Source: Xenophilus sp. E41 (GTDB lineage Bacteria; Pseudomonadota; Gammaproteobacteria; Burkholderiales; Burkholderiaceae_C). Taken from it: a stretch of DNA of 64,000 nt. The notes under the pieces are model-generated. The model was not told the origin of the DNA and did no database searches. It was given only the letters and a program-made list of their open reading frames with translations. This document shows, piece after piece, positions 46,837 through 63,021 of the stretch. The position numbers were made by a program, and so were the translations under genes. Each line of letters opens with the position of its first letter. Position 1 is the first letter of the stretch. The stretch spans positions 62,001-126,000 of the forward strand of contig NZ_QPIB01000041.1 of the NCBI RefSeq assembly GCF_003671765.1. The letters are read 5' to 3'.

Positions 46837-48132
46837 TCAGCCGCCCTGCCCGCGCGGCGCCACGGCGCGGTGGCCGATGTCCTTGCGGTACTGCACGCCA
46901 TCGAAGCGCACCTGGGCCGCCACCTCGTACACGCGCTGCTGCGCGAGCTTGACGCTGTCGGCCAGCACGGTGACACACAGCACGCGGCCGCCGCTGGTGA
47001 CGAGCTGCCCGTCCTTGAGCGCAGTGCCGGCATGGAACACCACCGCGTCGGGCGCCTCGGCCGGGATGTTGGTGATGGCGTCGCCCTTGCGCGGCGACAG
47101 CGGGTAGCCGTGCGCGGCCAGCACCACGCCCAGCGCCACGCGGCGGTCCCACTGCAGATCGACCTGGTCCAGCGTGCCGTCGGTGGCATGCCAGAACACC
47201 TCGAACAGGTCGGACTTGAGCCGCATCATGATCGGCTGCGTCTCGGGGTCGCCCATGCGGCAGTTGAACTCGAGCGTCTTGGGGTGGCCCTGCGCGTCGA
47301 TCATCAGGCCGGCGTACAGGAAGCCGGTGTACGGAATGCCGTCCTTCTCCATGCCGCGGATGGTCGGCAGGATGATCTCGCGCATGGCGCGGGCATGGAC
47401 CTCGGCCGTCACCACCGGCGCCGGCGAGTACGCGCCCATGCCGCCGGTGTTGGGGCCTTCGTCGCCGTCGAGCAGGCGCTTGTGGTCCTGGCTGGTGGCC
47501 AGCGCGGTGACGTTCTTGCCGTCGCACATGACGATGAAGCTGGCTTCCTCGCCCTGCAGGAACTCCTCGATGACGACGCGCGCGCCGCCTTCGTTGTGGG
47601 CGACGCCGAACTTGTTGTCGACCAGCATGAAGTCGACCGCCTCGTGCGCTTCGGCCAGCGTCGTCGCCACCACCACGCCCTTGCCGGCCGCCAGGCCGTC
47701 GGCCTTGACGACGATGGGCGCGCCCTTGGCGTCGATGTACGCATGCGCCGCCGCCGGGTCGGTGAAGGCCTCGTATTCGGCCGTCGGGATCTTGTGGCGC
47801 TTCATGAAGGCCTTGGAAAAGGCCTTGGAGCTCTCGAGCTGCGCCGCCGCCTGCGTGGGGCCGAAGATGCGCAGGCCGTGGGCGCGGAACTCGTCCACCA
47901 CCCCTGCCGCCAGCGGCGCCTCGGGGCCCACCACGGTGAGCGCGATCTTCTCCTTCTGCGCCCATTCGCGCAGGGCGACGGGCTCGCTCAGGTCCACGTT
48001 GATGAAGCGCTTGTCGGTCGCCGTGCCGCCATTGCCCGGCGCCACGTACAGCTTGGACACCCGCTCCGACTGGGCCAGGCGCCAGGCCAGCGCATGCTCG
48101 CGGCCGCCGCCGCCGACTACTAGAACCTTCAT
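46837..48132 (-). CDS. purD: Phosphoribosylamine-glycine ligase PurD
   Basis: The 431-residue ATP-grasp enzyme begins [19 protein letters not shown] and has [17 protein letters not shown] and [11 protein letters not shown], typical of PurD. It joins phosphoribosylamine to glycine in purine synthesis. ATG 48132 overlaps the yebC stop by 4 bp, confirming the start. Confidence 0.97.
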
Positions 48133-48854
48133 TCGGCGATCTCGGCGTTGTGGAAGACCTCCTGGACATCGTCCAGGTCTTCGAGCACGTCCAGCAGCTT
48201 CTGCATCTTTGCGCCGTCCTCGCCGGCCAGCTCGATGCTGTTCTCGGCCCGCATGGTCACCTCGGCCAGCTCGGGCTTCAGGCCGGCGGCCTCGAGCGCG
48301 TTCTTCACGGCCTCGAACTCCGCCGGGCCGGTCAGCACCTCGATGGCGCCGTCCTCGTGGGTGACCACGTCCTCGGCGCCCGCCTCGAGGGCGACTTCCA
48401 TCACCTTGTCCTCGCTGGTGCCGGGCGCCAGGATGATCTGGCCGCAATGCTTGAACTGGAAGGCCACCGAGCCCTCGGTGCCCATGTTGCCGCCGTACTT
48501 GGCGAAGGCGTGGCGCACCTCGGCCACGGTGCGCACGCGGTTGTCGGTCATGGTGTCGACGATGATCGCCGCGCCGCCGATGCCGTAACCCTCGTAACGG
48601 ATTTCCTCGTAGGTGACGCCTTCAAGGTTGCCGGTCGCCTTGTCGATGTTGCGCTTGATGGTGTCGGCCGGCATATTCGCGGCCTTGGCCTTGTCGACCG
48701 CCAGCCGCAGGCGGGGGTTGGCGCTGAGGTCACCGCCGCCCTGGCGGGCCGCCACCATGATCTCGCGGATGACGCGCGTCCAGATCTTGCCGCGCTTCTC
48801 GTCCTGCCGGCCCTTTCTGTGTTGAATGTTCGCCCACTTGCTGTGTCCGGCCAT
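48129..48854 (-). CDS. yebC: YebC/PmpR-family regulator
   Basis: The 241-residue protein starts [25 protein letters not shown], the unmistakable YebC N-terminus, and shows its three-domain layout. Members bind DNA as regulators or assist translation of proline-rich stretches. It is the first gene of the eight-gene operon to rng; its promoter should lie in the 207-bp space divergent from the halogenase-like gene. Confidence 0.95.
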
Positions 48855-49061: not shown

Positions 49062-50411
49062 ATGACATCGACCTCCACCACCGAGCCGTCCCCGCCCCAG
49101 ACCTGCGACGTGTTCGTCATCGGCGGCGGCCCGGCCGGCGCGACCATCGCGGCATTGCTCGCGCGCCAGGGGCGCCAGGTCGTACTGGCCGAGAAGGCGC
49201 ATCACCCGCGCTTCCACATCGGCGAGTCGCTGCTGCCGGCCAACGTGGCCCTGTTCGACAAGCTGGGCGTGCGCGAGGAGGTCGAGAAGATCGGCATGGC
49301 CAAGTGGGGCGTCGAGTTCGTCTCGCCCGACCACGAGCACCGCGTGCAGCTCGAGTTCGCCGAGGGTTGGGACAAGTCGCTCACCCATGCCTGGCAGGTG
49401 CGGCGCTCGGATCTGGACGAGATCCTCTTTCGCCGTGCCGCGGCCGACGGCGCCCAGGCCATCGAAGGCTGCCGCGTGCGCGACGTCGCCTTCGACACCG
49501 ATGGCGCCACCGTGCGCGCCACGCTCGACGACGGCGCCGAGCGCAGCTGGCGCGCCCGCTTCGTGGTCGACTGCTCCGGCCGCGACACCTTCCTGGCCAA
49601 CAAGTTCAAGGCCAAGCAGAAGAACCCGCGGCACAACAGTTCGGCCCTGTTCGGCCACTTCCGCAATGCCGAGCGCGGCGAGGGCAAGCTCGAGGGGAAC
49701 ATCACCATCTTCTGGTTCCAGCACGGCTGGTTCTGGTACATCCCGCTGGCCGACGGCACGACCAGCATCGGCGCCGTGTGCTGGCCCTACTACCTCAAGT
49801 CGCGCACCAAGCCGGTCAAGGACTTCTTCGCCGAAACCATCGCCCTGTGTCCCGCGCTGGTCGAGCGCCTGAAGGACGCGGAGCTGGTCGACGACGCGGT
49901 CTACGCCACCGGCAACTACTCCTACACCAGCACGCATTGCAGCGGCGAGCGCTACCTGATGCTGGGCGACGCCTTCACCTTCATCGACCCGGTGTTCTCC
50001 TCGGGCGTGTACCTGGCGATGCACAGCGCCTTCGAGGGCGTGGCCGTGGTCACCGCCACCCTGGACCAGCCCGCCAAGGCCCCGGCCGCCCGCCGGGCCT
50101 TCGAGAAGTACATGCGCTTCGGGCCGCGCGAGTTCTCGTGGTTCATCTTCCGCGTGACCAACCCGACCATGCGCGAGTTCTTCATGTACCCGCAGAATCC
50201 GCTGCGCGTGAAGGAGGCCCTGATGGGCCTGCTGGCCGGCGACATCCACGGCAAGACGCCGCTGTGGATTTCGCTTCGCGCGCTCAAGGGCTTCTACTTC
50301 GTCGCCTGCGCCCTGCATCCGCGCCGCAGCTGGAACGCCTGGCGACGCCGCCGTCGCAACGTCCGCGACCTGGGCGCGCTGGTCGGCGAGAACGTGGTCG
50401 ACGCCAAGTGA
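49062..50411 (+). CDS. Halogenase-like FAD-dependent oxidoreductase of the aryl polyene-type locus
   Basis: The 449-residue protein has an FAD motif (VIGGGPAGATIAALLARQG), GESLLP and the flavin-dependent halogenase motif WFWYIP (W223-x-W225-x-I-P). Lys81 in MAKWGVEF aligns with the lysine that carries the haloamine in halogenases such as PrnA. So both halogenase determinants are present, though many relatives in pigment loci are not proven halogenases. Xanthomonadins are brominated, which fits. It starts the plus-strand set of four genes; the chorismatase GTG overlaps its stop by 4 bp. Confidence 0.88.
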   Translation: MTSTSTTEPSPPQTCDVFVIGGGPAGATIAALLARQGRQVVLAEKAHHPRFHIGESLLPANVALFDKLGVREEVEKIGMAKWGVEFVSPDHEHRVQLEFAEGWDKSLTHAWQVRRSDLDEILFRRAAADGAQAIEGCRVRDVAFDTDGATVRATLDDGAERSWRARFVVDCSGRDTFLANKFKAKQKNPRHNSSALFGHFRNAERGEGKLEGNITIFWFQHGWFWYIPLADGTTSIGAVCWPYYLKSRTKPVKDFFAETIALCPALVERLKDAELVDDAVYATGNYSYTSTHCSGERYLMLGDAFTFIDPVFSSGVYLAMHSAFEGVAVVTATLDQPAKAPAARRAFEKYMRFGPREFSWFIFRVTNPTMREFFMYPQNPLRVKEALMGLLAGDIHGKTPLWISLRALKGFYFVACALHPRRSWNAWRRRRRNVRDLGALVGENVVDAK

Positions 50412-51451
50412 CGGCCGCGCCCTCCTCCCGCCCCGCGGCGCCGCTGCGCGTGCAGCGCCTGCCGCTGGCCCAGATCCTGGCCAGCGCCGGGCATGACCAC
50501 GCACACGCCCCTTTCGCTGCGCTGACCTACGGCGTCGCCGGCCACGAACCCTGGATGACCGGCGTCGCCGCCCATGTGCTGCTCGAGCACGAGCCGCTGG
50601 CCGACGTGTGGCAGGCCGGGCCGGCCGTGCAGTCCGGCACCACCGGGGTGGTGCGCTGGCGCACCGACGGCGACTGGCTGCTCGGCGTGGTCGACCTCAG
50701 CGAGGCCGACGAGGCCGGCGGCCTGGAACCGCTCGCACGGCGCGCCTACGGCAACGTGTTCGACGCGATGCGCCAGACCGGCTGCACCGAGCTGCTGCGC
50801 ATCTGGAACTACCTGCCCCGCATCAACGCCGACGGCGGCGGGCTGGAACGCTACCGCCAGTTCAACGCCGGCCGGCAGCAGGCCTTCCTGGATGCCGGCG
50901 CGGCCGCTTTCGACGGTGCGCCGGCCGCCTGCGCGCTGGGCCTGCGCGACGGTGGCCTGTGCGTGCGCTTCCTGGCCGGCCGCGTGAAAGCGCTGCCGAT
51001 CGAGAACCCGCGGCAGGTCTCGGCCTACCGCTACCCCGACCGCTACGGCCCGCGGGCCCCGACCTTCTCGCGCGCCGCGCTGGCGCCGCTGGGCGACGGC
51101 CAGGTCGCGCTCTTCGTCTCCGGCACCGCCAGCATCGTCGGCCACGAGACGGTGCACGTGGGCGACGTGCAAGCCCAGGTGGCCGAGACGCTGACCAATC
51201 TGCACACCGTGGTCGGCGAAGCCAACGCCCGCACCACCGCGCGCTTCGCGCTGCAGGACACGGAACCGGTCGTCTATGTGCGGCACCCGGCCGATGCGCC
51301 GCGCATCCGCGCGCAGCTGGCGCAGGCGCTGGGCGAAGACTCGCGCTTCATGCGGCAGGCAGTCTTCCTCGAAGCCGACATCTGCCGGGCCGACCTGCTG
51401 GTCGAGATCGAGACGCACGGCACGGCGGCCGGGAGCCTGATCGCGTCATGA
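50408..51451 (+). CDS. XanB2/FkbO-type chorismatase
   Basis: The 347-residue protein starts at GTG 50408, coupled to the upstream stop. It shows the chorismatase signatures: LLRIWNYLPRINADGGGLERYRQFNAGRQQAF, YRYPDRYGPRAPTFSRA and FVSGTASIVGHETVHVGD. The family hydrolyses chorismate: FkbO and XanB2 give dihydroxycyclohexadienoate or 3-/4-hydroxybenzoate. In xanthomonadin loci XanB2 supplies the hydroxybenzoate starter, and the same role is inferred here because an AMP-ligase and an acyl carrier protein are encoded in the locus. Which product forms cannot be decided. Confidence 0.9.
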   Translation: MTAAPSSRPAAPLRVQRLPLAQILASAGHDHAHAPFAALTYGVAGHEPWMTGVAAHVLLEHEPLADVWQAGPAVQSGTTGVVRWRTDGDWLLGVVDLSEADEAGGLEPLARRAYGNVFDAMRQTGCTELLRIWNYLPRINADGGGLERYRQFNAGRQQAFLDAGAAAFDGAPAACALGLRDGGLCVRFLAGRVKALPIENPRQVSAYRYPDRYGPRAPTFSRAALAPLGDGQVALFVSGTASIVGHETVHVGDVQAQVAETLTNLHTVVGEANARTTARFALQDTEPVVYVRHPADAPRIRAQLAQALGEDSRFMRQAVFLEADICRADLLVEIETHGTAAGSLIAS

Positions 51452-52248
51452 CGCGGTCGCTCGGCCTCCTGAAGGCCATCCTCCTCGCGCCAGTGCTGTA
51501 CGTGCTGCTGCTCGGCCTGGGCCTGGCGTCGCTGGCCTGGAACCTGGTCGCCATGGTGCTCTACCCGGTGCTGCCCACGGCGCGCGGCCGCGTGGTCGGC
51601 CGGGCGGGCATCGCCTACGGATACCGCGGCTTCTGGATCATCGCGTCGATGCTGGGCATGATGCGCATCGACGCGCGCTGCCTGGCGCCGCTGCGCGACG
51701 AGTCCGGGCTGGTGATCGTGGCCAACCACCCGACCATGCTCGACGCGCTGCTGCTGGTGGCGCACCTGCCGCGCAGCGCCTGCATCATGAAGGCGTCGCT
51801 GATGAAGAACGTGTTCCTCGGCGCCGGCGCGCGCCTGGCGCGCTACATCCGCAACGACTCGGCGCGCACCATGATCAAGCTGGCCGTCGCCGATCTGCGC
51901 GACGGTGGGCAGCTGGTGATCTTTCCCGAGGGCACGCGCACCGAAGGCGGCCCGCTCAACCCTTTCCGGCCCGGCGTGACGCTGATCGCCAAGATGGCGC
52001 AGGCGCCGATCCAGACCGTGTTCATCGACACCGACTCGCCCTACCTCGGCAAGGGCTGGCCCATCTGGCGCGTGCCGCCGCTGCCGATCGTGTTCAACCT
52101 GCGGCTGGGCGAGCGTTTCGCGCCCTCGCAGGACAGCGACGCGCTGCTGGCGCAACTCGAAAACTACTACCGCCACCATACGGAACCGCGCACAGGGCGT
52201 GCGCCCGCCACCGAATGCCAGAGCTCTCGCGCACCCACCTTGTCCTGA
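51448..52248 (+). CDS. 1-acyl-glycerol-phosphate-type acyltransferase (PlsC-like)
   Basis: The 266-residue protein has an N-terminal membrane helix pair (ILLAPVLYVLLLGLGLASLAW). The LPLAT motif NHPTMLD (HX4D) and the acyl-acceptor motif FPEGTRT follow. Enzymes of this type in aryl polyene loci are thought to attach the polyene to a lipid. It overlaps the chorismatase by 4 bp and the glycosyltransferase by 34 bp, so the four plus-strand genes are one operon. Confidence 0.9.
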   Translation: MTRSLGLLKAILLAPVLYVLLLGLGLASLAWNLVAMVLYPVLPTARGRVVGRAGIAYGYRGFWIIASMLGMMRIDARCLAPLRDESGLVIVANHPTMLDALLLVAHLPRSACIMKASLMKNVFLGAGARLARYIRNDSARTMIKLAVADLRDGGQLVIFPEGTRTEGGPLNPFRPGVTLIAKMAQAPIQTVFIDTDSPYLGKGWPIWRVPPLPIVFNLRLGERFAPSQDSDALLAQLENYYRHHTEPRTGRAPATECQSSRAPTLS

Positions 52249-52991
52249 TCCCCAGCTACAACACCGGCGAGCGCCTGTTCTCCACCGTCGCCGGTGCGCG
52301 AGCGCAGTGGGGCCCGGTGTGGGTGGTGGTGGACGGCAGCACCGACGGCACTGGCGAGCGCCTGGCGGCGCAGGCCGAAGGCGATGCCGGCCTGCGGGTG
52401 TGGTGCCTGCCCGAGAACCAGGGCAAGGGTGCGGCCGTGATGCATGGTCTGCGCACGGCCCTGGCCGAGGGCTACACGCATGCGCTGACGATGGACTCGG
52501 ATGGCCAGCATCCGGCCGACCTGATCTCGGCCTTTATGCAGGCGTCGACGGCACGGCCCGAGACGATGGTCCTGGGCCGCCCGGTGTTCGACGCCAGCGC
52601 GCCGCTGCTGAGGGTGCGCGGGCGCAAGGTGTCCAACGGCTGGACGCAGCTGGAGACGCTCTTCGCGGGCATCGGCGATTCGCTCTACGGTTTTCGCGTG
52701 TACCCGATCGCCGAGCTGCTGGCGGTGATGGAGAAGCAGCCCTGGATGCGCCGCTTCGACTTCGACACCGAGGCCGTGGTTCGGCTGGCCTGGCGCGGGG
52801 TGAAGCCCGTGAACATCGACGCGCCGGTGAAGTACCTGAGCGCGGAGGAAGGCGGCGTGTCGCACTTCCGCTATGGGCGCGACAACGTGCTGCTGACGTG
52901 GATGCACACGCGGCTCATGGTCGAGTTCGTGCTGCGGCTGCCGGGGTTGCTGGTCCGGCGGCTGTTGAAGAAGCCACCGTTCCAGGACTGA
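52215..52991 (+). CDS. Family 2 glycosyltransferase (dolichol-phosphate mannosyltransferase-like)
   Basis: The 258-residue protein has the GT2 opening LVLIPSYNTGERLF, VVVDGSTDGT and the metal-binding DSDGQHP. It is a single soluble GT-A domain with a short hydrophobic C-terminus (VLRLPGLLVRRLLKK). Similar enzymes are encoded in xanthomonadin and aryl polyene loci and are presumed to decorate the lipid carrier or head group. The start ATG 52215 overlaps the acyltransferase; a 441-bp gap follows. Confidence 0.9.
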   Translation: MPELSRTHLVLIPSYNTGERLFSTVAGARAQWGPVWVVVDGSTDGTGERLAAQAEGDAGLRVWCLPENQGKGAAVMHGLRTALAEGYTHALTMDSDGQHPADLISAFMQASTARPETMVLGRPVFDASAPLLRVRGRKVSNGWTQLETLFAGIGDSLYGFRVYPIAELLAVMEKQPWMRRFDFDTEAVVRLAWRGVKPVNIDAPVKYLSAEEGGVSHFRYGRDNVLLTWMHTRLMVEFVLRLPGLLVRRLLKKPPFQD

Positions 52992-53432
52992 TTCGCCTGT
53001 CTTGGGAATCGTCACGTTTGTGACGAGTTTGGCTGGAGCGCACGGCTGGCCTGGGCTGGCGGGCGATTGCGCTTTTTGCTTTTCTGTGGGCTTTGAGGGG
53101 GTTCGGGCGCTGTGGGCCTGAACCCGGACGGCGGCGCCGGTGTGCGTTCTCCGGCTCAGGCTCGCGCTGACCGTCGTGCGGCACGACGGATGTGCTCGCC
53201 TGGCATCGACGCGCCTTGGGCACTGCACGGCGCCGCGAATGGCGCCTGCGCCCGCACACCGGCACCACCGGCCTGGACCGGGCGCGCGATCGGCCGGCAT
53301 GGGGCGGGCGCGCTTGGTTCAGGCAGCTCTGTTCTGCCGCCGACCCTGCCCCATCCGTTTCGCGGCCGCCGCCAGCGCACCAGCCCATCGTGCCGGCCGA
53401 TCAAACACAGCCCAACAACAAGCCGCCAGCCC
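52992..53432. other. Gene-free gap between convergent halves of the locus
   Basis: This 441-bp stretch between the glycosyltransferase and the ketoreductase has no convincing gene; the short frames in it are low-complexity Arg/Ala/Pro. It holds two hairpins, CGTCAC-N4-GTGACG (53010-53025) and a 9-bp-arm palindrome CCGTCGTGC-G-GCACGACGG (53171-53189), plus a T-rich patch near 53075. It could be a terminator region or a deletion scar. Confidence 0.6.
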
Positions 53433-54167
53433 TTACACCATCCCGCCGTTGATCGAAATCACCTGCCCCGTGATGTACGCCGCCTCCGGCCCGGCGAGGA
53501 AGCCAGCCAGCGCCGCGACTTCCTCCGGCGTGCCCGCGCGCTTGACCGGCACCAGCTGCTGGATCAACGCCGGGTCGAACACCGCATCGGCCATGGGCGA
53601 CGCGATGATCCCCGGCGCGATGGCGTTCACCGTCACGCCGCGCGGCGCCACCTCGAGCGACAAGGCCTTGGTCGCGCTGTTGAGCGCCCCCTTGGCAGCG
53701 GCGTAGTTCACCTGGCCCTTGTTGCCGGTGATCGCCGCCACCGACGAGATGTTGATGATGCGGCCCCAGCGCGTGCGCAGCATCGGCAGCAGCAAGGGCT
53801 GCGTCACGCGGAAGAAGCCGTTCAGCGACACGTCGATCACCTTGTGCCACTGCTCGGCGCGCATGCCGGGCATCACCGCGTCGTCGTGCACGCCGGCGTT
53901 GTTCACCAGCACCTGCACCGGGCCTGCTTCGAGGATGCGCGCGCAGGCCTGGGCCGTGCCCTCGTCGCTCGTCAGGTCGAAGACATGGCACTCGGCTTGG
54001 CCGCCCGAAGCGGCAATGCGCGCAGCCAGCGCCTCGATGGCGTCACGCCGGCCGTTGGCGTGCAGCAGCACGGTGGCGCCGTCGCGCGCCAGGCGCTCGG
54101 CGATGGCCGAGCCGAGGGCGCCGCTGGCACCGGTGACGAGGGCGCGTTTGCCTTGGAGTGAGGTCAT
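53433..54167 (-). CDS. 3-oxoacyl-ACP reductase (FabG-like SDR)
   Basis: The 244-residue protein is a FabG-type short-chain dehydrogenase: TGASGALG, VLVNNAGVHDD, NISSVAAITGNKGQVNYAAAKGAL with the catalytic Ser, Tyr and Lys, and VISINGGMV. It should reduce the beta-keto group of the growing polyene chain on the carrier protein with NADPH. It is the last gene of the minus-strand run from the acyl carrier protein. A ketosynthase commonly follows at this position in aryl polyene loci but none is found. Confidence 0.9.
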   Translation of the reverse strand: MTSLQGKRALVTGASGALGSAIAERLARDGATVLLHANGRRDAIEALAARIAASGGQAECHVFDLTSDEGTAQACARILEAGPVQVLVNNAGVHDDAVMPGMRAEQWHKVIDVSLNGFFRVTQPLLLPMLRTRWGRIINISSVAAITGNKGQVNYAAAKGALNSATKALSLEVAPRGVTVNAIAPGIIASPMADAVFDPALIQQLVPVKRAGTPEEVAALAGFLAGPEAAYITGQVISINGGMV

Positions 54168-54187
54168 GGGGGCTGGTCCGGACAGGT

Positions 54188-54649
54188 TCAGGATGCCGCG
54201 GGCAGCGGCGTGTTGAGGACGACCACCGCGCGGCCGTCGGCCACGGGGCGGCCCGCGCCGTCTTCGACGCGGAAGGCATACATCACCTGGTTCACGTCGC
54301 CCGACAGGCGCTCGGCATGCAGGTGCAGCGGGGCCGGCCGGTCGTCGAAGCGGGCGCCGTGCAGCCGCACGTTGCGCGTACTGGCCAGGAAACCGGCCGA
54401 GGGCTCGCTGCCCTCGGCGGCGAGCAGGCCGCCGTGCAGGGCCATCGCCTGGGCGGCGAACTCGATGGCGCAGGCGCTCATCAGGCCGCTGGCGGTGCGC
54501 AGCGGATTGGCCGGGTCGGCATGGCGCGCCGTCGTGCAGTGGATGGACTGGGCGTCCCAGCGTTCGAGCCGGTCGAGCAGGCACATGTCGCCGCTGTGCG
54601 GGATGCGCGCGGCGATGCCGGCGCGCTCGAGGGTCTGGGGAGCGGTCAT
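54188..54649 (-). CDS. Hotdog-fold 3-hydroxyacyl-ACP dehydratase
   Basis: The 153-residue protein has the pattern IPHSGDMCLLDRLERWD near its start, typical of the dehydratase partner in aryl polyene loci (ApeP-like). It ends with RLSGDVNQVMYAFRVEDGAGRPVADGRAVVVLN. It would dehydrate the 3-hydroxyacyl intermediate made by the adjacent ketoreductase. ATG 54649 overlaps the methyltransferase stop by 4 bp. Confidence 0.85.
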   Translation of the reverse strand: MTAPQTLERAGIAARIPHSGDMCLLDRLERWDAQSIHCTTARHADPANPLRTASGLMSACAIEFAAQAMALHGGLLAAEGSEPSAGFLASTRNVRLHGARFDDRPAPLHLHAERLSGDVNQVMYAFRVEDGAGRPVADGRAVVVLNTPLPAAS

Positions 54650-55419
54650 GTCGTCGAATCCTCGATGTCGGCCACCAGCAGCACGTTGGCGAAGGGCGTG
54701 CCTTCGCTCATCGGCATGGGTTGCACGGAAAAACCCAGGCGCTGGAGCAGCGCGATCCATTCGTCCAGGGTGCGGCCCCAGGTCGGCGATACCTTGTGGC
54801 CGCGGATGCGCGTCACCGTGCGGTCGACCCACTGGCTGATGGCGAAGCCACGCTTGCTGGCCGCATCGCCCACCCTCAGCAGCAGGCGGCCGGGCACGGT
54901 TCGTTCAGATGCGCCGCGCAGCAAGGCGTCGCGCAGGCGCAGCAGCACGCCCTCCTGCGCGGCCAGGTCGACGTAATGCAGCACGTCGAGGATCACCACC
55001 ACGTCGCAGGCCGGGAACTCGGCCGTGCACATGTTGCCGCACACGATGGTCGGCAAGGGCCGGATGTGGCCCACGGACTTCTGCGCCCGCGCCACGTCGC
55101 GCGGCATGAGCTCGATGCCGGTGTAGACCGGCGACGGCGGCGTCGCGGCCCAGCCCTGCGGCCAACGCCCGGCGCGTTGCATGCCGGCCATGCTGTGCAG
55201 CAGGTTGGCGAACAGGCTCTGGCCCGAGCCGATGTCGAGCATGCGCGGCCGCCCGGGGCCGATCAGGCCACGCGACACGATGCCGCGGAAGGCCGGGTCG
55301 TAGCCCAGCTTGCCGCGCGCGAAATGCCAGGCGAAATTGCCGCCCTGCTTGTACGGGGCGCTGGCCTGGTCGTGCAGTTCCCGCCAGGCGGCGTCGGGGG
55401 TGAGGATGGCGGTCGTCAT
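54646..55419 (-). CDS. Class I SAM-dependent methyltransferase
   Basis: The 257-residue protein has the glycine-rich motif I MLDIGSGQSLFANLL and motif YTGIELMPRDVARAQ, then VVVILDVLHYVD, consistent with a class I methyltransferase. The target could be the phenol of the aryl head group or a downstream acceptor; the sequence does not say. It is coupled on both sides (4-bp overlaps), so it is a genuine member of the locus. Confidence 0.87.
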   Translation of the reverse strand: MTTAILTPDAAWRELHDQASAPYKQGGNFAWHFARGKLGYDPAFRGIVSRGLIGPGRPRMLDIGSGQSLFANLLHSMAGMQRAGRWPQGWAATPPSPVYTGIELMPRDVARAQKSVGHIRPLPTIVCGNMCTAEFPACDVVVILDVLHYVDLAAQEGVLLRLRDALLRGASERTVPGRLLLRVGDAASKRGFAISQWVDRTVTRIRGHKVSPTWGRTLDEWIALLQRLGFSVQPMPMSEGTPFANVLLVADIEDSTT

Positions 55420-56243
55420 TGGGTTTCTCTCAGCGCCTCGGGCAGCGTCACCGAGCGCAGGCCCTCGGCGCTCAGACGCGCGAGCAGCGGCGGCAGCACT
55501 TCCAGCACCACGGGCCGGCCCGCCGCAGTACGTGCGGCGTTGCCGTCGTGCAGCAGCAGGATGTCGCCGGCCGCCATCCCGCGGGTCAGACGCGCCAGCA
55601 CCTTGGACGCATCGCCCTCGCGCGTGTCGAAGCCGCGGCGCGTCCAGCTCACCAGTGTGAGGCCGAGCCGATGCAGCACCGGCGCGAGAAAGGGGTTGCG
55701 CAAGCCGGCCGGTGCGCGGAAGCAGCGTGGGCGCTGCCCGGTGACCGCCTCCAGCATCTGCTGGGCGCGCTCGATCTCCGTGGCGTAGCCGCGCGGGCCG
55801 AGGAAGGAGAAGTCGTGCCGGTGCCGCGCCGTGTGGTTCTGGATGCTGTGGCCGCGCGCCACGATGTCCCGCGCCAGTTCCGGGTGCGCCTGCACGCGCT
55901 CGGCGATGCAGAAGAAGGTGGCTTTGTGCCCGGCCGCATCGAGCAGGTCGAGCACCGCGGGCGTCACCGCCGGCTCGGGCCCGTCGTCGATGGTCAGGGC
56001 CACCTGGCGACGCGCGACGGCCGCAGCGGGCAGGCGCGTGATGTTTTCGCCCAACCAGTGGCTGCGCGGCGTGAGCCCGATGGCGGTAATTGCCACATGG
56101 TTGAGCACGACCGCCGCGAGCGCCCACGGCCACAGCGACGGCGCAACCACCACCGCCGCCAGCGCCGCCAGGTGCAGCACCGCGCTGGCGCGCACGAAGG
56201 GCGGCAGCCGCCATGGCGCCGGGCGACGGGCGGCGGTGCTCAT
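55416..56243 (-). CDS. Polysaccharide deacetylase (NodB-type) membrane protein
   Basis: The 275-residue protein has an N-terminal hydrophobic segment (about residues 20-50). The NodB domain follows: motif 1 ALTIDDGPEP, motif 2 HSIQNHTARHRHDF, RAPAG and LLLHDGNAA, so the metal and catalytic residues are present. Such enzymes remove acetyl from GlcNAc-type sugars. Its place between the exporter and the methyltransferase suggests a sugar on the polyene lipid may be deacetylated. ATG 56243 overlaps the exporter stop. Confidence 0.87.
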   Translation of the reverse strand: MSTAARRPAPWRLPPFVRASAVLHLAALAAVVVAPSLWPWALAAVVLNHVAITAIGLTPRSHWLGENITRLPAAAVARRQVALTIDDGPEPAVTPAVLDLLDAAGHKATFFCIAERVQAHPELARDIVARGHSIQNHTARHRHDFSFLGPRGYATEIERAQQMLEAVTGQRPRCFRAPAGLRNPFLAPVLHRLGLTLVSWTRRGFDTREGDASKVLARLTRGMAAGDILLLHDGNAARTAAGRPVVLEVLPPLLARLSAEGLRSVTLPEALRETQ

Positions 56244-58651
56244 GCCACCTCCTTCACGGCACTGGTCGATGCCCTGCCCGTGCGGGCGAAGGCGGCCGAA
56301 AGCAGCAGCGCCAGCAAGGCCCCGGGCGCCACCACCTGCCCGATCGCCGACAGCGACGGGATGGCCGAGATGGCGATCAGGGTGAAGGACACCACCGTCG
56401 TGAGGTTGGCCAGCATGAGCGAGGCCAGCGTGTCCTCGTCGGCATGGCCGGTCACCTGCAACTGGTCGAAGAAGAGCGCGTAGTTCGAGCCGACGGCAAC
56501 CACCAGCAGCAACCCGACCAGGTGCAGGATGCTCAAGGCCATGTGCATTGCCGCCATGGCGCCCAGCGTGAGCACCACCGCCACCACCAGCGGCAGGCAG
56601 ACGGCGAAGAGCCGCCGCGCCGAGCGCAGCCAAATACCCAGCAGCACCACCACGGCGAGCGCGCCCAGGGCCACCTGGACGAAGGCGTCGTGCAGGTAGC
56701 GGTCGTAGAGGTCGCCCAACTCCTGGCCGACGTCGGCCACCGTCACCTCGGGCAGGCCTGCCAATGCGGCCACCACCTTCGCATGCTCGAACCTGGGCCC
56801 GGTGTGCAGCGACAGCATCGCTGCCCAGCCGCCGCCGGGCCGCTCGAACAGCAGCGCATTGGTCACCGCATCGAGCGGACCCGCCGCCATGTCCTTCAGG
56901 CCGACCGGCTGGCGCGTGCGCGCCTTCTCGATCTCGGCCACGAAGGGTGCCAGGCGCTGCGCCGACAGCGGCAGGTCGGTCGTGGCTTCGGCCAAACGAG
57001 CGCGCAGCGTGTCGGCATCGGGCAGCGCCTCCAGCCGGCGCGCCTGGGTCTGCTGGCTGGGCAGGAAGCGCGTGACCGTGTCGTAGCCCAGCAGCTCGCC
57101 GCTGTCGACCAGCTTGTCCAAACGCGCGCCCGCGGCCTCGGCGTTGCGCAGCGCAGCCTCGACGGTGTCGCCGTAGGCCACCACCAGCGTCGCGGCTTCG
57201 CTGGCACCGATATCGTTGCGCAGGCTCTCGTCCAGCAGCTGCGCGGAGCGCGGCACCGGGCTCATCGAGCTGAGCTTGGCGCGCCACAGCTCCTGGCCCT
57301 GCCACACGACCAACGCCGCCGCCGCCACACCCAGCGCCATGAGCGGCAGGCGCAAACGGGGCAGCGCGTGGACGATGGCGCCCGCCACCTGCGCCATGTA
57401 GCGGCGCAGGCCCTTTCCGGTGGCGCCGTTGGGCGCCAGCACCGGCAGCACGTAGCGCGTGGCCAGGGCCGCGGCCACCAGGCCCGCGATGGAGAACACG
57501 CCCAGCTGCGCCAGGCCCGGGAAGCCCGAGAAGACCAGCGCCGCGAAGCCGCACACCGAGGTCAGCAGGCCCAGGCGCACCGTGGGCCAGTGCACGTCGC
57601 GCCAGCGCTGCCAGCCGGCCAGCCCGGCGCGTTCGGTCGCGACCTGCCGCGCCTGGATCAGGTAGTAGATCGCGTAGTCGACCGTCTCGCCGATCAGCGT
57701 GCTGCCGAAGCCCATCGTCAGGCCGTGCACGTTGCCGAAGACCAGGCTCACGCTGGCGGTGCCGGCGACCACGCCGGTCGCCACCGGCAGCAGCGCCAGC
57801 GCCAGTGCCCGCAGCGACGCGAAGGCCAGCAGCAGCAGGCCGCTCATGACGATGGCGCCGACGACGGCGAGGTGGATCGCTTCCGACTTGATGCTGTCGC
57901 GGCTCTGCACCGAGAACACCGCCGTGCCGCTCATCAGCAGCCTCGGCGCCTGGGCGCCCTGCCCCTTCGCGCCGGCGGCGGCCTCGGCGAAGGCGCCGTG
58001 CACGCGCGCGATGGCCGCGGCCTGCGCATCGAGGTCGCCGCCGGCCGCGCGGGTGCTGGCCAGAAGCAGCGCGCGCGGCGCCTCGCGCGCGACCCACACG
58101 CCCTCGTCGGTGCGCGGCGCCGTGGGCGGGATCAGCGCCTCGGCGATGCGTGCGGCCTCGCCAGTCGGGTCGCGGTCGAGCAAGGGTTTGAAGGCGTTGC
58201 CCGCAGGCGTGCCCAGCAGCGAGAGCGTGTCGAGGATCGCGTCGCGCAGGCCCTCGGTCGTGAAGCGCGCGGGCGTGACGTCGGGCGACAGCTGGTAGCG
58301 GTGGTCGAAGACCCAGGTGCCGGCGTCCTTCCACTCGGTGGTGTCGCCGTTCTGCACCTGGTCGAACAGGCCGCTGGCGCGCAGCTTGCGGCCCATCTCG
58401 CGCGAGACCTGGGCCCGGTCGGCCGCGTCCTGCCCGCCTTCGATGCCGATGAACAGCGTGCGCGACGCGATGCCGCTTTGCAGCTGCTCGATCAGCATGC
58501 GCTGCTTGGCGTCGGGACTGGCCGGCAGAAAGGCCGAGAGGTCGGCACTGAAGTGCGAACGCGCGATCACGCCGGCGCCCGCCAGCAGCAGGAGCAGCCA
58601 GATGCCCAGCGCCAGCCAGCGATGCCGCGGCCCTGCCGCCGTCACGCTCAT
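56240..58651 (-). CDS. MMPL/RND-family exporter
   Basis: The 803-residue protein has an RND/MMPL arrangement: an N-terminal helix (LALGIWLLLLLAGAGVIA), a large periplasmic loop, a cluster of helices from about 240 to 420, a second loop, and a final cluster from about 650. The linker LHLVGLLLVVAVGSNYALFFDQLQ fits the MMPL exporters of aryl polyene loci, which move the polyene or its lipid to the outer membrane. Its gene overlaps the lolA-like gene by 4 bp. Confidence 0.9.
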   Translation of the reverse strand: MSVTAAGPRHRWLALGIWLLLLLAGAGVIARSHFSADLSAFLPASPDAKQRMLIEQLQSGIASRTLFIGIEGGQDAADRAQVSREMGRKLRASGLFDQVQNGDTTEWKDAGTWVFDHRYQLSPDVTPARFTTEGLRDAILDTLSLLGTPAGNAFKPLLDRDPTGEAARIAEALIPPTAPRTDEGVWVAREAPRALLLASTRAAGGDLDAQAAAIARVHGAFAEAAAGAKGQGAQAPRLLMSGTAVFSVQSRDSIKSEAIHLAVVGAIVMSGLLLLAFASLRALALALLPVATGVVAGTASVSLVFGNVHGLTMGFGSTLIGETVDYAIYYLIQARQVATERAGLAGWQRWRDVHWPTVRLGLLTSVCGFAALVFSGFPGLAQLGVFSIAGLVAAALATRYVLPVLAPNGATGKGLRRYMAQVAGAIVHALPRLRLPLMALGVAAAALVVWQGQELWRAKLSSMSPVPRSAQLLDESLRNDIGASEAATLVVAYGDTVEAALRNAEAAGARLDKLVDSGELLGYDTVTRFLPSQQTQARRLEALPDADTLRARLAEATTDLPLSAQRLAPFVAEIEKARTRQPVGLKDMAAGPLDAVTNALLFERPGGGWAAMLSLHTGPRFEHAKVVAALAGLPEVTVADVGQELGDLYDRYLHDAFVQVALGALAVVVLLGIWLRSARRLFAVCLPLVVAVVLTLGAMAAMHMALSILHLVGLLLVVAVGSNYALFFDQLQVTGHADEDTLASLMLANLTTVVSFTLIAISAIPSLSAIGQVVAPGALLALLLSAAFARTGRASTSAVKEVA

Positions 58652-59244
58652 GGCGCCGCGCGCCCCGGCACGATGGTCATCACGGACCGGTCACCGCCGA
58701 CGAATTCCATCTCGACGCCCTGCAGCTCGCCGGCGCGCCCGCTCAGGCGCAGGCTGCGGATCTGGCGCCCGAGCGCGGGATCGAGGGGCGCGAGGTCGAG
58801 CGTCCAGTCCTTGGCGTCGCCCTTCAGGTCGGTGCGGAAGTAGCGCTGCAGCAGCGTGGAATTGCCGCTGAGCGCGCCGCGCATCGCCTCCACCAGCCCG
58901 GCCAGCTCGGGCATGCTGTCCAGCGTGGTGGTGCGCGTGCGGCCCCCACGCTGCAGCACCAGCGCATTGCCTTCGACCGACATCGACTCGGGCCGCGGGC
59001 TCAGCGTGCGTCGCACCAGCTTGTCGGGCGGCACGAAGCTCAGCGTGCCGCTGGACGCGAGCGGGCCGTCGATGCCGCGCACGTAGCGCTGCTCGGTGAA
59101 GCGCGCCTCGCCGTTCTTCTGCTGGGCCAGCAGGCCCATCAGGTCCTTGACCTCGAAGGCCCAGGCGCCGGTCGCCGGCACCCAGGCCGCCAGGGCCAAC
59201 AGGGCGGCGGCGCACCAGGTTCGTGGGCGGCGGCTACTGCGCAT
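58648..59244 (-). CDS. LolA-like outer-membrane carrier protein
   Basis: The 198-residue protein has a signal peptide (TWCAAALLALAAWVPATGAWA) and a LolA-type beta-barrel half (LMGLLAQQKNGEARFTEQRYVRGIDGPLASSGTLSF). LolA homologues in such loci are thought to carry lipid-like polyene across the periplasm. The start ATG 59244 is placed 11 bp inside the upstream acyltransferase; the larger frame would begin inside it. Confidence 0.85.
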   Translation of the reverse strand: MRSSRRPRTWCAAALLALAAWVPATGAWAFEVKDLMGLLAQQKNGEARFTEQRYVRGIDGPLASSGTLSFVPPDKLVRRTLSPRPESMSVEGNALVLQRGGRTRTTTLDSMPELAGLVEAMRGALSGNSTLLQRYFRTDLKGDAKDWTLDLAPLDPALGRQIRSLRLSGRAGELQGVEMEFVGGDRSVMTIVPGRAAP

Positions 59245-60250
59245 CTTCCTGCCAGAAATCATGGAAATTGAACCAGTTGTGGGGATGGGCACGGCACAGG
59301 GCCTCGAGCCGCTGCACATAGGCTTCGAGGGCGGCGCGAATGCGTTGTTCCCGCTGTGCCGGGTCGGTGATGCGCCCGGAGAAGTCCGCCAGCGGCTCGA
59401 ACACCACCTCGTAGTGTGCGCCGCCGTGGTAGATGCCGGCCATGAACAGCACCTTGCGCCGCAGCAACGCGGCGAGCCGGAAGGGGCCGTCGGTGAAAGG
59501 CGCCTCGCGGCCGAGGAAAGGCAGCAGGACCGTGTCGCCGCGCTGGCCCGCCGCCTCTTCCTGCGGCGTGAGGGTGCGGTCGCCGAGCATGCCCGCCATG
59601 TGCCCGCCGTCGAGCCAGTCGCGCAGCTCGAGCATCGCGCTCGGCCGGCCGAGCGCGATCACCCGCGGCTTGAGCCCAGGCAGGCTGATGGCGTCGAGCA
59701 CCGCGTTGATGCGCCGGGCGTTGTCCGGGAACATGAGCATGGCCAGTTGCAGGTCGAGCTCGCCGGAGCCCAGCTGCCGGCAGGCGCTCAGCGCCTCGAA
59801 ACTGCCCACATGGGCACCGATAAGGAAGGCGCCGCGGCCGGCGCGCAGCTCGTCCTCGATCACCGGCACGCCGGTCACGTCGACATCGAACAGGTCGAGC
59901 CGGCCGCGCAGGAAATAAACGCGGTCCAGCACCGTCGAGGCAAAGCCGTGCAGCAGCCGGTAGCCGTCGCCCCAGCCGGCATGCGGGCCCACGGCCCGCT
60001 CGAGGTAACGCCGGATGTGCCGCCGCTGCGACGGCGAGAACAGCAGGAAATACAGTGTGATCGGATGCAGGATCAGCCGCGCCACCGGCCGGCCCAGGCG
60101 CAGCGCCACCCAGCAGATGAAGCGCAGCGCGGCCATGTTGCTGCGCTCGGGCGCCTGCGCCCAGTCGGCGGGCGCCGCTGCGTTGGCGACCGGCGGCGCC
60201 TCGGGCGGGCGCTTCGCCACCGGTTCCACCTCCTCCCGGACCACGCTCAT
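59234..60250 (-). CDS. LpxL/HtrB-type LPLAT acyltransferase
   Basis: The 338-residue protein has a hydrophobic helix (LRFICWVALRLGRPVARLILHP) and the lauroyl-transferase active-site HX4E in GAHVGSFEAL, with the C-terminal NWFNFHDFW of the family. It should transfer an acyl group, here perhaps the aryl polyene from its ACP to a lipid acceptor. It overlaps the AMP-ligase by 4 bp. The N-terminus is Pro/Ala-rich and may be extended beyond the conserved core. Confidence 0.85.
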   Translation of the reverse strand: MSVVREEVEPVAKRPPEAPPVANAAAPADWAQAPERSNMAALRFICWVALRLGRPVARLILHPITLYFLLFSPSQRRHIRRYLERAVGPHAGWGDGYRLLHGFASTVLDRVYFLRGRLDLFDVDVTGVPVIEDELRAGRGAFLIGAHVGSFEALSACRQLGSGELDLQLAMLMFPDNARRINAVLDAISLPGLKPRVIALGRPSAMLELRDWLDGGHMAGMLGDRTLTPQEEAAGQRGDTVLLPFLGREAPFTDGPFRLAALLRRKVLFMAGIYHGGAHYEVVFEPLADFSGRITDPAQREQRIRAALEAYVQRLEALCRAHPHNWFNFHDFWQEDAQ

Positions 60251-61935
60251 GGGACGGCGGCGCCGGGGGTCCACCGGCCGGTGGCAGCCACGGTGTCGCC
60301 GCAGCGGATGTCGAATCGCACGCCCCGCCCTGCCCCGTCCTCGGGCTGCAGGTCGAAGACCAGCGTGCTGCCCGGCCGCACCGGGGCGAGGAACTTGGCG
60401 GCGGCCAGCACCGGCGCATCGCCCAGGCGCCGGTGCAGCGCCGGCACGCGCCGCATGGCTTCCTGCAGCTCGGCCAGCAGAAGCGCGCCAGGCATCAGCG
60501 GCTGGCCCGGGAAATGGCCCGCGAAACAGGGGTGGTCCTGCGGCACCTCGTGCGTCAGCCGCACCGGCGCGCCTTCGGCGGCCACTTGCGCCAGGGCGAA
60601 CTCGCGCAGCGCACGCACCGTGAGCTTGCCGGTGCCCTCCCGCGGCAGCGACGCCACGTGCACCACACGGCGCGGCACGAAGACCCCCTCGATCCGATCG
60701 CGCAGCGCGGCGACGATGTCGTGCGCCTCGACGCCCGGCGCCACCACGAAGGCGATGGGACGCACCACGCCGTCGGCCACATCGTCGGGCAGCCAGAAGG
60801 CGCCGTCCTGCACGCCGGCGATGCTGTTGAGGTGGTAGTTGAGGTGCCCCAGCGAGCTTCGCCGGCCGGCCACGTGGATCAGGTCGTTGGCCCGGCCGAA
60901 GAGGCGGAAGCGCCGCGGGTCCAGCAGTTCGAGCACGTCGGCCATCGGCGTCGGCTCGGGGATGAAATCGCCTTCGAAGACGAAGCGCTCCACGCCGTCG
61001 TCGCCGGTGCGGGCGTGCACCTCGATGGCGCCGAAGGTCTCCCAGACCTCGCTGCGGGTCGTGCGGCGCACGGCCACCTGGCCCGACTCGGTGCTGCCGT
61101 AGATCTCGAGCAGCACACCCCCGGTGGCCTGCTCGGCCTGCTGCGCGAGCTGCGGCGACAGCGGCGCGGTGGCCGACAGCAGCAGATCGACCGGCGGCAG
61201 AGGCAGGCCCGATTGCAGCAGCGTCTTCAGATGGAACGGCGTGGTGACGAGCGCGCGCGGCCGCGGCACGGACTCGAGCGCCTGCACGATGTCGGCTGGA
61301 TAGAAGGGCCGGCCGCTCTCGAAGGCCGCGCCGCCGTGCAGCGCCAGCAGCAGGGTCGACTCCAGCCCGTAGCTGTGCTGCACCGGCACGGTGGCCACCA
61401 GCGTGAGGCCGCGCAGGGACTCCAGCCCGAGCAGCTCGCACAGGCGCGGCACGGCCGCCTCGACGTCGCCGACCAGGGTGTCCCAGCGCTTGGCATGCGG
61501 CTGCGGCACGCCGGTCGAACCGGAGGTGAGCAGGCTCACCGCATGCCGCCCGCCGTCGAAGCGCGGCACGGCTGGGTCGCCATCGCCCGGCTCGCGCGTG
61601 CACACCACCGGCACATGCGGCAGGCCGGGGGTGTCGAGCGCCGGGTGGTCGGTGAGGATGAAGGGCGTGGCATGCGGCGCGCACACCCGCGCGAGCGTGT
61701 CGGGACGCGCGTCGGGCGGCAGCAGGCTCGCATGGCCGCGCAGCAGCGCCGCCCCCAGGCAGACCGCGAAGGCATAGCGGTCGCCGCACACGTTGACGGC
61801 CGGGCCCTCGGCCGGCAGCACCGCCGCCTGCCGGGCCACGTCGGCCAGGAAGGTGCGGGCACTGACCGGCCGGCCCTCGTGCCAGGCCAGCGGGGCGTCG
61901 AGGTCGCGCTCGCCGAGCAAGGGAAAGGATGTCAT
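60247..61935 (-). CDS. AMP-ligase fused to a hotdog dehydratase domain
   Basis: The 562-residue protein has two modules. Residues 1 to about 445 are an ANL adenylate-forming enzyme: A3 motif LLTSGSTGVPQPHAK, VLLEIYGSTESGQVAVR and GTGKLTVRALREF with the catalytic Lys region. Residues about 458-562 are a FabZ/FabA-like hotdog with HPCFAGHFPGQPLMPG. It would load the hydroxybenzoate starter and also act on 3-hydroxyacyl-ACP. In related E. coli loci these functions are separate genes, so the fusion is unusual but plausible. Confidence 0.9.
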   Translation of the reverse strand: MTSFPLLGERDLDAPLAWHEGRPVSARTFLADVARQAAVLPAEGPAVNVCGDRYAFAVCLGAALLRGHASLLPPDARPDTLARVCAPHATPFILTDHPALDTPGLPHVPVVCTREPGDGDPAVPRFDGGRHAVSLLTSGSTGVPQPHAKRWDTLVGDVEAAVPRLCELLGLESLRGLTLVATVPVQHSYGLESTLLLALHGGAAFESGRPFYPADIVQALESVPRPRALVTTPFHLKTLLQSGLPLPPVDLLLSATAPLSPQLAQQAEQATGGVLLEIYGSTESGQVAVRRTTRSEVWETFGAIEVHARTGDDGVERFVFEGDFIPEPTPMADVLELLDPRRFRLFGRANDLIHVAGRRSSLGHLNYHLNSIAGVQDGAFWLPDDVADGVVRPIAFVVAPGVEAHDIVAALRDRIEGVFVPRRVVHVASLPREGTGKLTVRALREFALAQVAAEGAPVRLTHEVPQDHPCFAGHFPGQPLMPGALLLAELQEAMRRVPALHRRLGDAPVLAAAKFLAPVRPGSTLVFDLQPEDGAGRGVRFDIRCGDTVAATGRWTPGAAVP

Positions 61936-62609
61936 TGCTTGGGAGCTGCCGGCCGCTCGGCCGGCACGTGGTTGTAGAAGGCCCGCACCGCGTCGACCAG
62001 GCGCGTGCGCTCGAATTCGGGGTGCAACCGGTAGCGCAGCAGGTACTCGCCGATGAAGAGCGCGCCGACGCCGATGGGCGTCAGCACGTTCGAGAACAGC
62101 GACCAGGCCGCGAAGGGCAGCGTGGCATACACCACCAGCGACAGCAGCGAGACGGCCGCGAAATACACCGCCCAGACGCGCGTGACGGCGGCCGTGTAGG
62201 CACGGTGCGCCGGCGTCAACGGATGGATACGCTGCGCGAACTGGCCGATGAGCGAAAGCCGGTCGGGCCGCAGCGTGCTGCCGAACCAGCCGCACAGCAG
62301 CGCGTTGATGCCGACATGCTGCAGCACGTACAGGCGGTTCGGGTCGCCCGCCTCGCCGCGCCAGACCAGCACGCAGAACACCGCGGCCGCCAGCAGCACG
62401 GCCACGGCGCCGGCCCGCCCGAAGCGTCCGGCCGCCAGCCCCAGGCCCGACAGCCACAGCGGCCCGAGCAGCACCACCACCGCCCACGGCTGCGCCGCAT
62501 GGAACAGCATCATCCAGTGCGACAGACCTGCATACGCGACCCCTGCGAGCAGCAGGAGCGCCACACGCCAACCCGCCATCTCAGTCGCGCCCGGCGGCGC
62601 GAGGTGCAT
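61932..62609 (-). CDS. COG4648-type integral membrane protein
   Basis: The 225-residue protein has about six hydrophobic helices, including WRVALLLLAGVAYAGLSHW and AVVVLLGPLWLSGLG, and conserved segments LQHVGINALLCGWFGSTLRP and RIHPLTPAHRAYTAAVTRVW. This is the COG4648 family found next to the AMP-ligase in aryl polyene loci; its function is unknown. It overlaps the ligase by 4 bp and starts 17 bp after the acyl carrier protein. A Met at residue 11 (62579) is an alternative start. Confidence 0.82.
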   Translation of the reverse strand: MHLAPPGATEMAGWRVALLLLAGVAYAGLSHWMMLFHAAQPWAVVVLLGPLWLSGLGLAAGRFGRAGAVAVLLAAAVFCVLVWRGEAGDPNRLYVLQHVGINALLCGWFGSTLRPDRLSLIGQFAQRIHPLTPAHRAYTAAVTRVWAVYFAAVSLLSLVVYATLPFAAWSLFSNVLTPIGVGALFIGEYLLRYRLHPEFERTRLVDAVRAFYNHVPAERPAAPKQ

Positions 62610-62625
62610 GGCGACCGGTCATGCC

Positions 62626-62922
62626 TCAGGCCGTGGTGCGGTTCTGTTCGACGTGCGCGGCCAGGCTGCGCAGCGACTCGAAGATCTGCTTGTTGCGCTC
62701 GTCGTCGGAGCGCAGCTGGAAGCCGTAGCGGCGGGAAATCTCCAGCGCCACCTCGAGGATGTCGATGGAGTCCAGGCCCAGGCCGTCGCCGTACAGCGGA
62801 ATGGTCGGGTCGATCGACTCCGGCGTCATTTCGAGGTTCAGCGCGTTCACGAGCACCGCGGCCAGTTCGGCTTCGAGGGGCGATTGGGCGGAAGCGGATG
62901 CAGGGTTGGCGGCAGTTGACAC
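62626..62922 (-). CDS. Acyl carrier protein of the aryl polyene-type locus
   Basis: The 98-residue protein is an acyl carrier protein with GLGLDSIDILEVAL, whose Ser takes the phosphopantetheine arm. A longer N-terminal Ser/Ala extension precedes the helix bundle. It starts at GTG with GGAG 6 nt upstream, a good ribosome binding site. It heads the minus-strand operon. Only one carrier protein is found; related loci often have two. Confidence 0.93.
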   Translation of the reverse strand: MSTAANPASASAQSPLEAELAAVLVNALNLEMTPESIDPTIPLYGDGLGLDSIDILEVALEISRRYGFQLRSDDERNKQIFESLRSLAAHVEQNRTTA

Positions 62923-62972: not shown

Positions 62973-63021
62973 GGAGGCACCCTTGGATAGACTGCCCGTA
63001 TCCATCCCTCCGGAGCGCCTC

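Follow-up and report, generated by a model that had tools for sequence, protein, structure and literature searches.

The 64,000-nucleotide stretch of Xenophilus sp. E41 analysed in this work (hereafter the window; C11:1077694-1141693, minus strand, of genome G000, which is 5.84 Mb in 47 contigs) carries a 14-gene cluster that is, judged by its gene content, a xanthomonadin/arcuflavin-type aryl polyene pathway without a ketosynthase (KS) in its operons. The cluster consists of two operons facing each other, four genes on the plus strand (49062-52991) and ten on the minus strand (53433-62922), and is bounded by yebC (48129-48854) and by a gene starting at 62983, whose name, HerA-like, comes only from a preliminary description of this DNA. 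Adjoining genes overlap or lie no more than 20 bp apart, the sole exception being a 441-bp gap (52992-53432) between the facing operons. Judged by the adenosine monophosphate (AMP) ligase, the closest named relative is Xenophilus aerolatus (95% identity). The genes were compared with Pfam and NCBIfam models, some query proteins then having starts 1-26 codons off; the coordinates below have been re-checked, and the arc names are those of the Azoarcus genes discussed further on.

49062..50411, plus strand: flavin adenine dinucleotide (FAD)-dependent halogenase-like protein, arcA-like; PF04820, 108 bits; GxGxxG, WxWxIP and FxxPxxSxG present
50408..51451, plus strand: XanB2/ArcB-type (FkbO/Hyg5-type) chorismatase, predicted to make hydroxybenzoate; PF21168, 133 bits; GTG start inferred
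51448..52248, plus strand: acyltransferase, arcD-like; PF01553
52215..52991, plus strand: GT2 glycosyltransferase, arcE-like; PF00535
53433..54167, minus strand: 3-ketoacyl-acyl carrier protein reductase (short-chain dehydrogenase/reductase), arcH-like; PF13561/PF00106
54188..54649, minus strand: small dehydratase-like protein, arcI-like; from position and conservation in relatives
54646..54649, minus strand: slot of the KS and its chain length factor (CLF), filled in 20 relative loci; here the 4-bp overlap of the methyltransferase and dehydratase genes
54646..55419, minus strand: S-adenosylmethionine (SAM) methyltransferase, arcM-like; PF08241, barely above cut-off (query without its 26 N-terminal residues)
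55416..56243, minus strand: polysaccharide deacetylase, arcN-like; PF01522
56240..58651, minus strand: RND/HpnN-like exporter, arcP-like; TIGR03480, 62 bits, far under cut-off; conserved position
58648..59262 (start unsure), minus strand: LolA-like carrier (LolA_3), arcQ-like; PF19574
59234..60250, minus strand: lipid-A-type acyltransferase, arcR-like; PF03279
60247..61935, minus strand: AMP ligase fused to a FabA-like dehydratase, arcT- plus arcS-like; PF00501, PF13193, PF07977
61932..62609, minus strand: membrane protein, arcU-like; conserved position
62626..62922, minus strand: acyl carrier protein (ACP), arcV-like; PF00550; NF006617, 130 bits (cut-off 70)

The genes expected of a xanthomonadin/arcuflavin-type pathway are thus there, i.e., a XanB2-type chorismatase, an AMP ligase, an ACP, a ketoreductase and dehydratases, the small dehydratase by synteny only. 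The chorismatase is above the cut-off of PF21168 and reaches 239 bits against TIGR04444, under the cut-off of 325 of that model. Neither the small dehydratase nor the membrane protein at 61932-62609 matched any Pfam or NCBIfam model, and the exporter matched none in Pfam, all three being named solely by synteny with arc loci. To the protein at 60247-61935 correspond, in several relatives that keep a KS in the slot (e.g., L111 and L120), two distinct matches that seem to be individual genes.

A KS is absent from this set. None of the 11 PF00109 matches in the genome falls inside the window, and the same genome-wide search found no KS in the roughly 20 kb on either side, the other match on C11 being at position 700324; the window also lacks PF13723, the family of the CLF. 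No remnant of a KS was recognised on inspection of the 441-bp gap, where no family search was made, and the open reading frames of the gap, which run antisense over the neighbouring genes, were judged spurious, likewise without a family search. These searches bear out the preliminary description, which had seen a 14-gene aryl polyene/xanthomonadin-type locus without a KS and had looked to a KS just outside the window as what would overturn this; its gene list is mostly supported, although it omitted the SAM methyltransferase and the deacetylase. A KS-CLF pair inside the cluster is not strictly defining for the xanthomonadin/arcuflavin type, as Azoarcus, too, has its arc genes split between loci.

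That a KS might lie elsewhere had been one of two explanations offered, and the search of the whole genome found a KS-CLF-halogenase unit on another contig, C41. The KS (125298, probably with a GTG start, to 126500) is followed by a half-length CLF-like protein of 271 amino acids (126497-127312), whose gene overlaps the KS stop, and by a second FAD halogenase-like protein of 545 amino acids (127323-128960); an AmpG/MFS-like transporter gene flanks the unit upstream and an OmpR-type response regulator downstream. With 504 bits against NF006618 (curated NCBI cut-off 407), this KS is the only match of such strength in the genome, and it keeps the C-H-K-H residues, as do 75 of the 75 aligned KSs. 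Its CLF partner is the only PF13723 match in the genome (91 bits), and both halogenase-like proteins, that of the cluster and that of C41, contain WxWxIP and FxxPxxSxG. A KS with an adjacent half-length CLF-like protein is thus present (around C41:125298-127312) and unlinked, at least 236 kb from the cluster, a minimum made up of the 125 kb that precede the KS on C41 and the 111 kb that separate the cluster from the end of C11.

The presence of an unlinked KS-CLF pair in the same genome would explain why none is found in the cluster. It also renders unnecessary the other explanation offered, namely that the cluster needs no dedicated KS and its product is a short aryl lipid, which accords with the lack of a KS in the window but not with a suitable KS-CLF pair in the same genome, nor with such a KS in 14 of the 14 members of the genus; without chain extension, moreover, little substrate would be left for the ketoreductase and the two dehydratases, and we regard this possibility as extremely unlikely.

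The unlinked layout is normal for the genus, where both markers, AMP ligase and KS, occur in 14 of 14 genomes and always on different contigs, and for the Variovorax-like genus of G122, taken to be Variovorax since positions in G181 coincide with those in V. paradoxus NBRC 15149, where 78 of 81 genomes have a KS above cut-off, 80 of 81 the ligase and 77 of 81 both. In 23 of those 77 the two are on the same contig, 1.3-4.1 Mb apart, in 54 they are on different contigs, and in none are they within 25 kb, the distance up to which we call them linked. These distances follow contig numbering, and only KS rows above cut-off were counted (the partial KS of G210 counting as lacking), with the second pieces of split AMP-ligase matches (G053, G197, G200) omitted; all 14 available genomes of the genus were searched, and the family, order, class and G122-genus searches were even draws from larger groups. 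The family sample has the AMP ligase in 30 of 150 genomes, and all 30 also have a KS above the NF006618 cut-off: within 25 kb in 23, 918 kb off in one (G079), and on a different contig in six (G000, G071, G122, G094, G090 and G053), among which G094, G090 and G053 are fragmented assemblies whose different-contig status gives no distance. G079 is another kind of split, with the KS inside the slot and the ligase part 918 kb away. Ten further family genomes, which have a KS above cut-off but lack an AMP ligase at E<=1e-40, contain clusters labelled as of the aryl polyene (APE) type, two of them (L134, L135) at contig ends. Among 20 named genomes, 17, all Variovorax, Xenophilus or Pseudacidovorax, hold a KS 73-98% identical to that of C41; the KSs of Methylibium, Aquabacterium and Hylemonella are 52-57% identical to it.

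The place from which the KS is missing can be recognised in relatives. In 20 relative loci (18 distinct, L112/L079 and L117/L083 being the same genomes twice) the small dehydratase is separated from the methyltransferase (or deacetylase) by a KS, which in each case is followed by a CLF match; measured between BLAST matches rather than annotated genes, this slot spans 1968-2210 bp in 17 loci and about 6.2 kb in three, and L117, L081 and L083 have further cluster genes in the interval from methyltransferase to KS. The KSs in these slots (KS1) share 51-56% identity with the KS of C41 (KS2). In the clade with the split layout, by contrast, all 31 loci that show both genes (28 distinct, with L119/L073, L160/L059 and L149/L067 each from one genome) have no KS in the slot, the matches being from -13 to 86 bp apart, and the rest of the operon keeps its order in most of the loci with a filled slot (L117, L081, L083, L156 and L157 are rearranged). 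A slot without a KS is also found in L229 and L233, which have a different gene order, in L116 (G053), where KS1 and KS2 are together on another contig, and in G090, whose empty slot (17 bp) goes with a KS2-CLF-halogenase unit on a different contig (L145, L146). Both kinds of KS occur in G005 and in G100 (L122 with L125; L153/L154 with L128). A stretch of G053 (L115:2730-15524) places KS1-CLF1 beside KS2-CLF2, together with the second halogenase, exporter, LolA, ACP and a FabF-like KS (KS3), and L115 looks like an intermediate with both systems.

The remote unit, on its side, occupies a fixed site, as the AmpG-like and response-regulator neighbours are found at 13 of 18 loci with a KS at least 66% identical, in addition to our own locus. 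The five without both neighbours are those of G005, G100 and G090 and second copies in G230 and G175; these second copies (L138 and L141, respectively) are remote-type KSs at other sites, that of L141 without an adjoining CLF match.

Phylogenies place the remote KS, on sequence, in a xanthomonadin-like branch different from that of the in-slot KSs of relatives. The KS tree has 59 rows, 17 of 76 having been dropped (FabF, FabF-like, second APE-type KS, L130, one extreme branch and near-duplicates). In it, the KSs of the split clade (13 rows, 100/99) join the extra KSs of G090, G005, G100, G053 and G989 (100/99), and these, together with the KSs of the f63, f230 and f19 genomes, form one clade (100/100), whilst 14 in-operon KSs of the same family form a separate one (100/99). 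Forcing the split and in-operon KSs together lowers the log-likelihood by 196 and is rejected under the model used (approximately unbiased (AU) test, p-AU 8.2e-6). The CLF tree (5 of 57 rows left out) shows the same division on one branch (100/98), with the L115_G053 CLF on the KS2 side. In the exporter tree, on the other hand, the split clade (12 rows, 100/100) lies inside a 19-row clade with G074, G143, G060/Methylibium, G098, G053 and G094 (100/99), itself nested in 27 rows of the same family (100/100). Since the exporter nests the split clade locally while the KS and CLF trees set the pair apart, the operon itself is local and the KS-CLF pair is not. This makes it very unlikely that the in-operon KS-CLF genes merely moved, unchanged, to another site: an empty slot and a pair elsewhere are what such a relocation would leave, but the trees put the remote pair in the other clade, their joint clade is rejected for the KS, and G005 and G100 hold both types.

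The empty slot, together with a remote KS from another clade, suggests that the resident KS-CLF of this clade has been lost and that the other KS-CLF(-halogenase) apparently serves in trans. The exporter of G090 groups with those of G005, G100a and G069 (99/96), apart from the split clade, which suggests that in G090 the loss of the KS-CLF and its swap are an independent repeat. We therefore consider it highly probable that the window holds part of a xanthomonadin/arcuflavin-type pathway encoded in at least two places, in which a KS-CLF(-halogenase) unit of the xanthomonadin-like branch replaces, in trans, a resident KS-CLF that has been lost. That the C41 pair serves this cluster we infer from the co-occurrence, the family of the KS and its CLF partner. 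The chorismatase would make 3- or 4-hydroxybenzoate, the ligase portion of the protein at 60247-61935 would load it on the ACP (62626-62922), and the KS-CLF at about C41:125298-127312 would extend the chain with malonyl units, each of which the ketoreductase and two dehydratases would convert to a double bond; the halogenase(s) and methyltransferase could then tailor the ring, and the acyltransferases, exporter and LolA-like carrier could bring the product to the outer membrane. From the gene content, the product looks set to be a yellow pigment, and probably a halogenated one.

Several points weigh against this interpretation. For this organism it is read from sequence; a quick tree had already been inspected when the group for the AU test was chosen; the rows L227 and L115_2 sit on long branches of the KS tree; 4 of the 13 fixed sites lack the second halogenase (present at nine); and KS2 may stem from transfer or from an old duplication. 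In addition, the genome has other KSs, namely FabF, KS3 in a unit with an ACP and a PAP2 protein on C43, and a KS-ACP-hydrolase unit on C22. PAP2 protein, ACP and KS3 (243844-245070) lie in a row at C43:242800-245073 (L010:6801-9074), and chain extension could be done or shared by this unit or by the housekeeping FabF: KS3 homologues (67-77% identical) adjoin polyene-cluster genes in L147, L063, L155 and L115, of the 10 family genomes whose KS3 is at least 60% identical, 9 have the AMP ligase too, and a second KS raises output in APE loci with ApeO-ApeC and ApeR (PMC8358021). Yet KS3 is under the cut-off of all 25 NCBIfam models among the matches listed, the sole PF13723 match is not beside it, and it reaches 60% in just 9 of the 30 AMP-ligase genomes, so that we deem the involvement of these KSs in extension unlikely; by analogy with ApeR, KS3 may have a helper role.

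Comparison with described systems shows what is ordinary here and what is not. Azoarcus sp. BH72 has two unlinked arc loci, insertion in either of which gives colourless cells, activities shown for ArcB and ArcT, and a dar cluster besides (PMC3949708). Our genes correspond in kind to arcA, B, D, E, H, I, M, N, P, Q, R, S, T, U and V, matched by annotation and not by sequence, and by annotation no counterpart was seen here of arcC, F, G, L, O, W and X; in both organisms pathway genes are spread over unlinked loci, both being needed for pigment in Azoarcus (PMC3949708). Unlike here, however, Azoarcus keeps its KS arcK and CLF-like arcJ with arcI-arcH in the chorismatase/halogenase locus, whereas in our strain both gene sets sit together and only the KS-CLF(-halogenase) is away (PMC3949708). 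In the xanthomonadin-like locus of Lysobacter enzymogenes a KS (ORF17) lies beside a half-length CLF-like ORF16, both required for pigment, an arrangement like ours by description, except that the locus is contiguous (PMC3691225); L222 and L223, whose gene order resembles that description, hold a KS 62% identical to the remote one. APE loci share the KS-CLF pair, ACP, ketoreductase, dehydratases and AMP ligase (PMC8358021), but in the APE-labelled loci of the same family the best KS is 41-47% identical and the AMP ligase, where matched, 26-29%. An APE (ApeO/ApeC/ApeR) type was rejected for our cluster, as the remote KS is not in the APE-type clade (six APE-type KSs being the outgroup of the KS tree) and no KS is inside the cluster.

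An unlinked KS is then ordinary in kind, with Azoarcus as precedent (PMC3949708). Less ordinary, and apparently new, is that an unlinked pair of another lineage stands in for the resident KS-CLF throughout a clade. Our literature search found no description of the split or the swap in Variovorax, with the proviso that Figure 2D and Table S2 of PMC3949708, on V. paradoxus S110, may show the unlinked layout. The preliminary description would also have counted as refutation syntenic relatives with the same gene set and a proven polyene made by fatty-acid FabF; the gene set does recur in the Variovorax/Xenophilus/Pseudacidovorax group, but this group has no proven product, and its KS is other than the fatty-acid FabF.

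We put forward only tentatively, at somewhat less than even chances, that a bacterial group changed its pigment in this way, losing the resident KS-CLF and letting a xanthomonadin-branch KS-CLF-halogenase take over in trans from a fixed distant site, at least twice (in Variovorax/Xenophilus/Pseudacidovorax and in G090). On this view G005 and G100 would be intermediates holding two systems, and a third KS-ACP unit might also contribute. If true, relatives with the KS in the slot and those with the split layout, otherwise similar in pathway genes, should differ in chain length or halogenation. Such natural pairs of near-alike pathways differing in KS-CLF would allow a direct test of whether polyene length depends on that pair alone and of whether an unlinked unit can retune a pathway. 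Genome mining cluster by cluster, for its part, would score the pathway as incomplete in a group common in soil and around roots, and would leave its chain-building enzyme unjoined.

Two of the other KSs deserve a brief description. The C22 unit (C22:808275-810781; L011:8276-10782) is a trio of KS, ACP and alpha/beta hydrolase, its KS being 45% identical to KS3. The best PF00109 match in the genome, at C45:29660-30409, lies inside an open frame of 2491 codons, and is for this reason probably part of a type I polyketide synthase.

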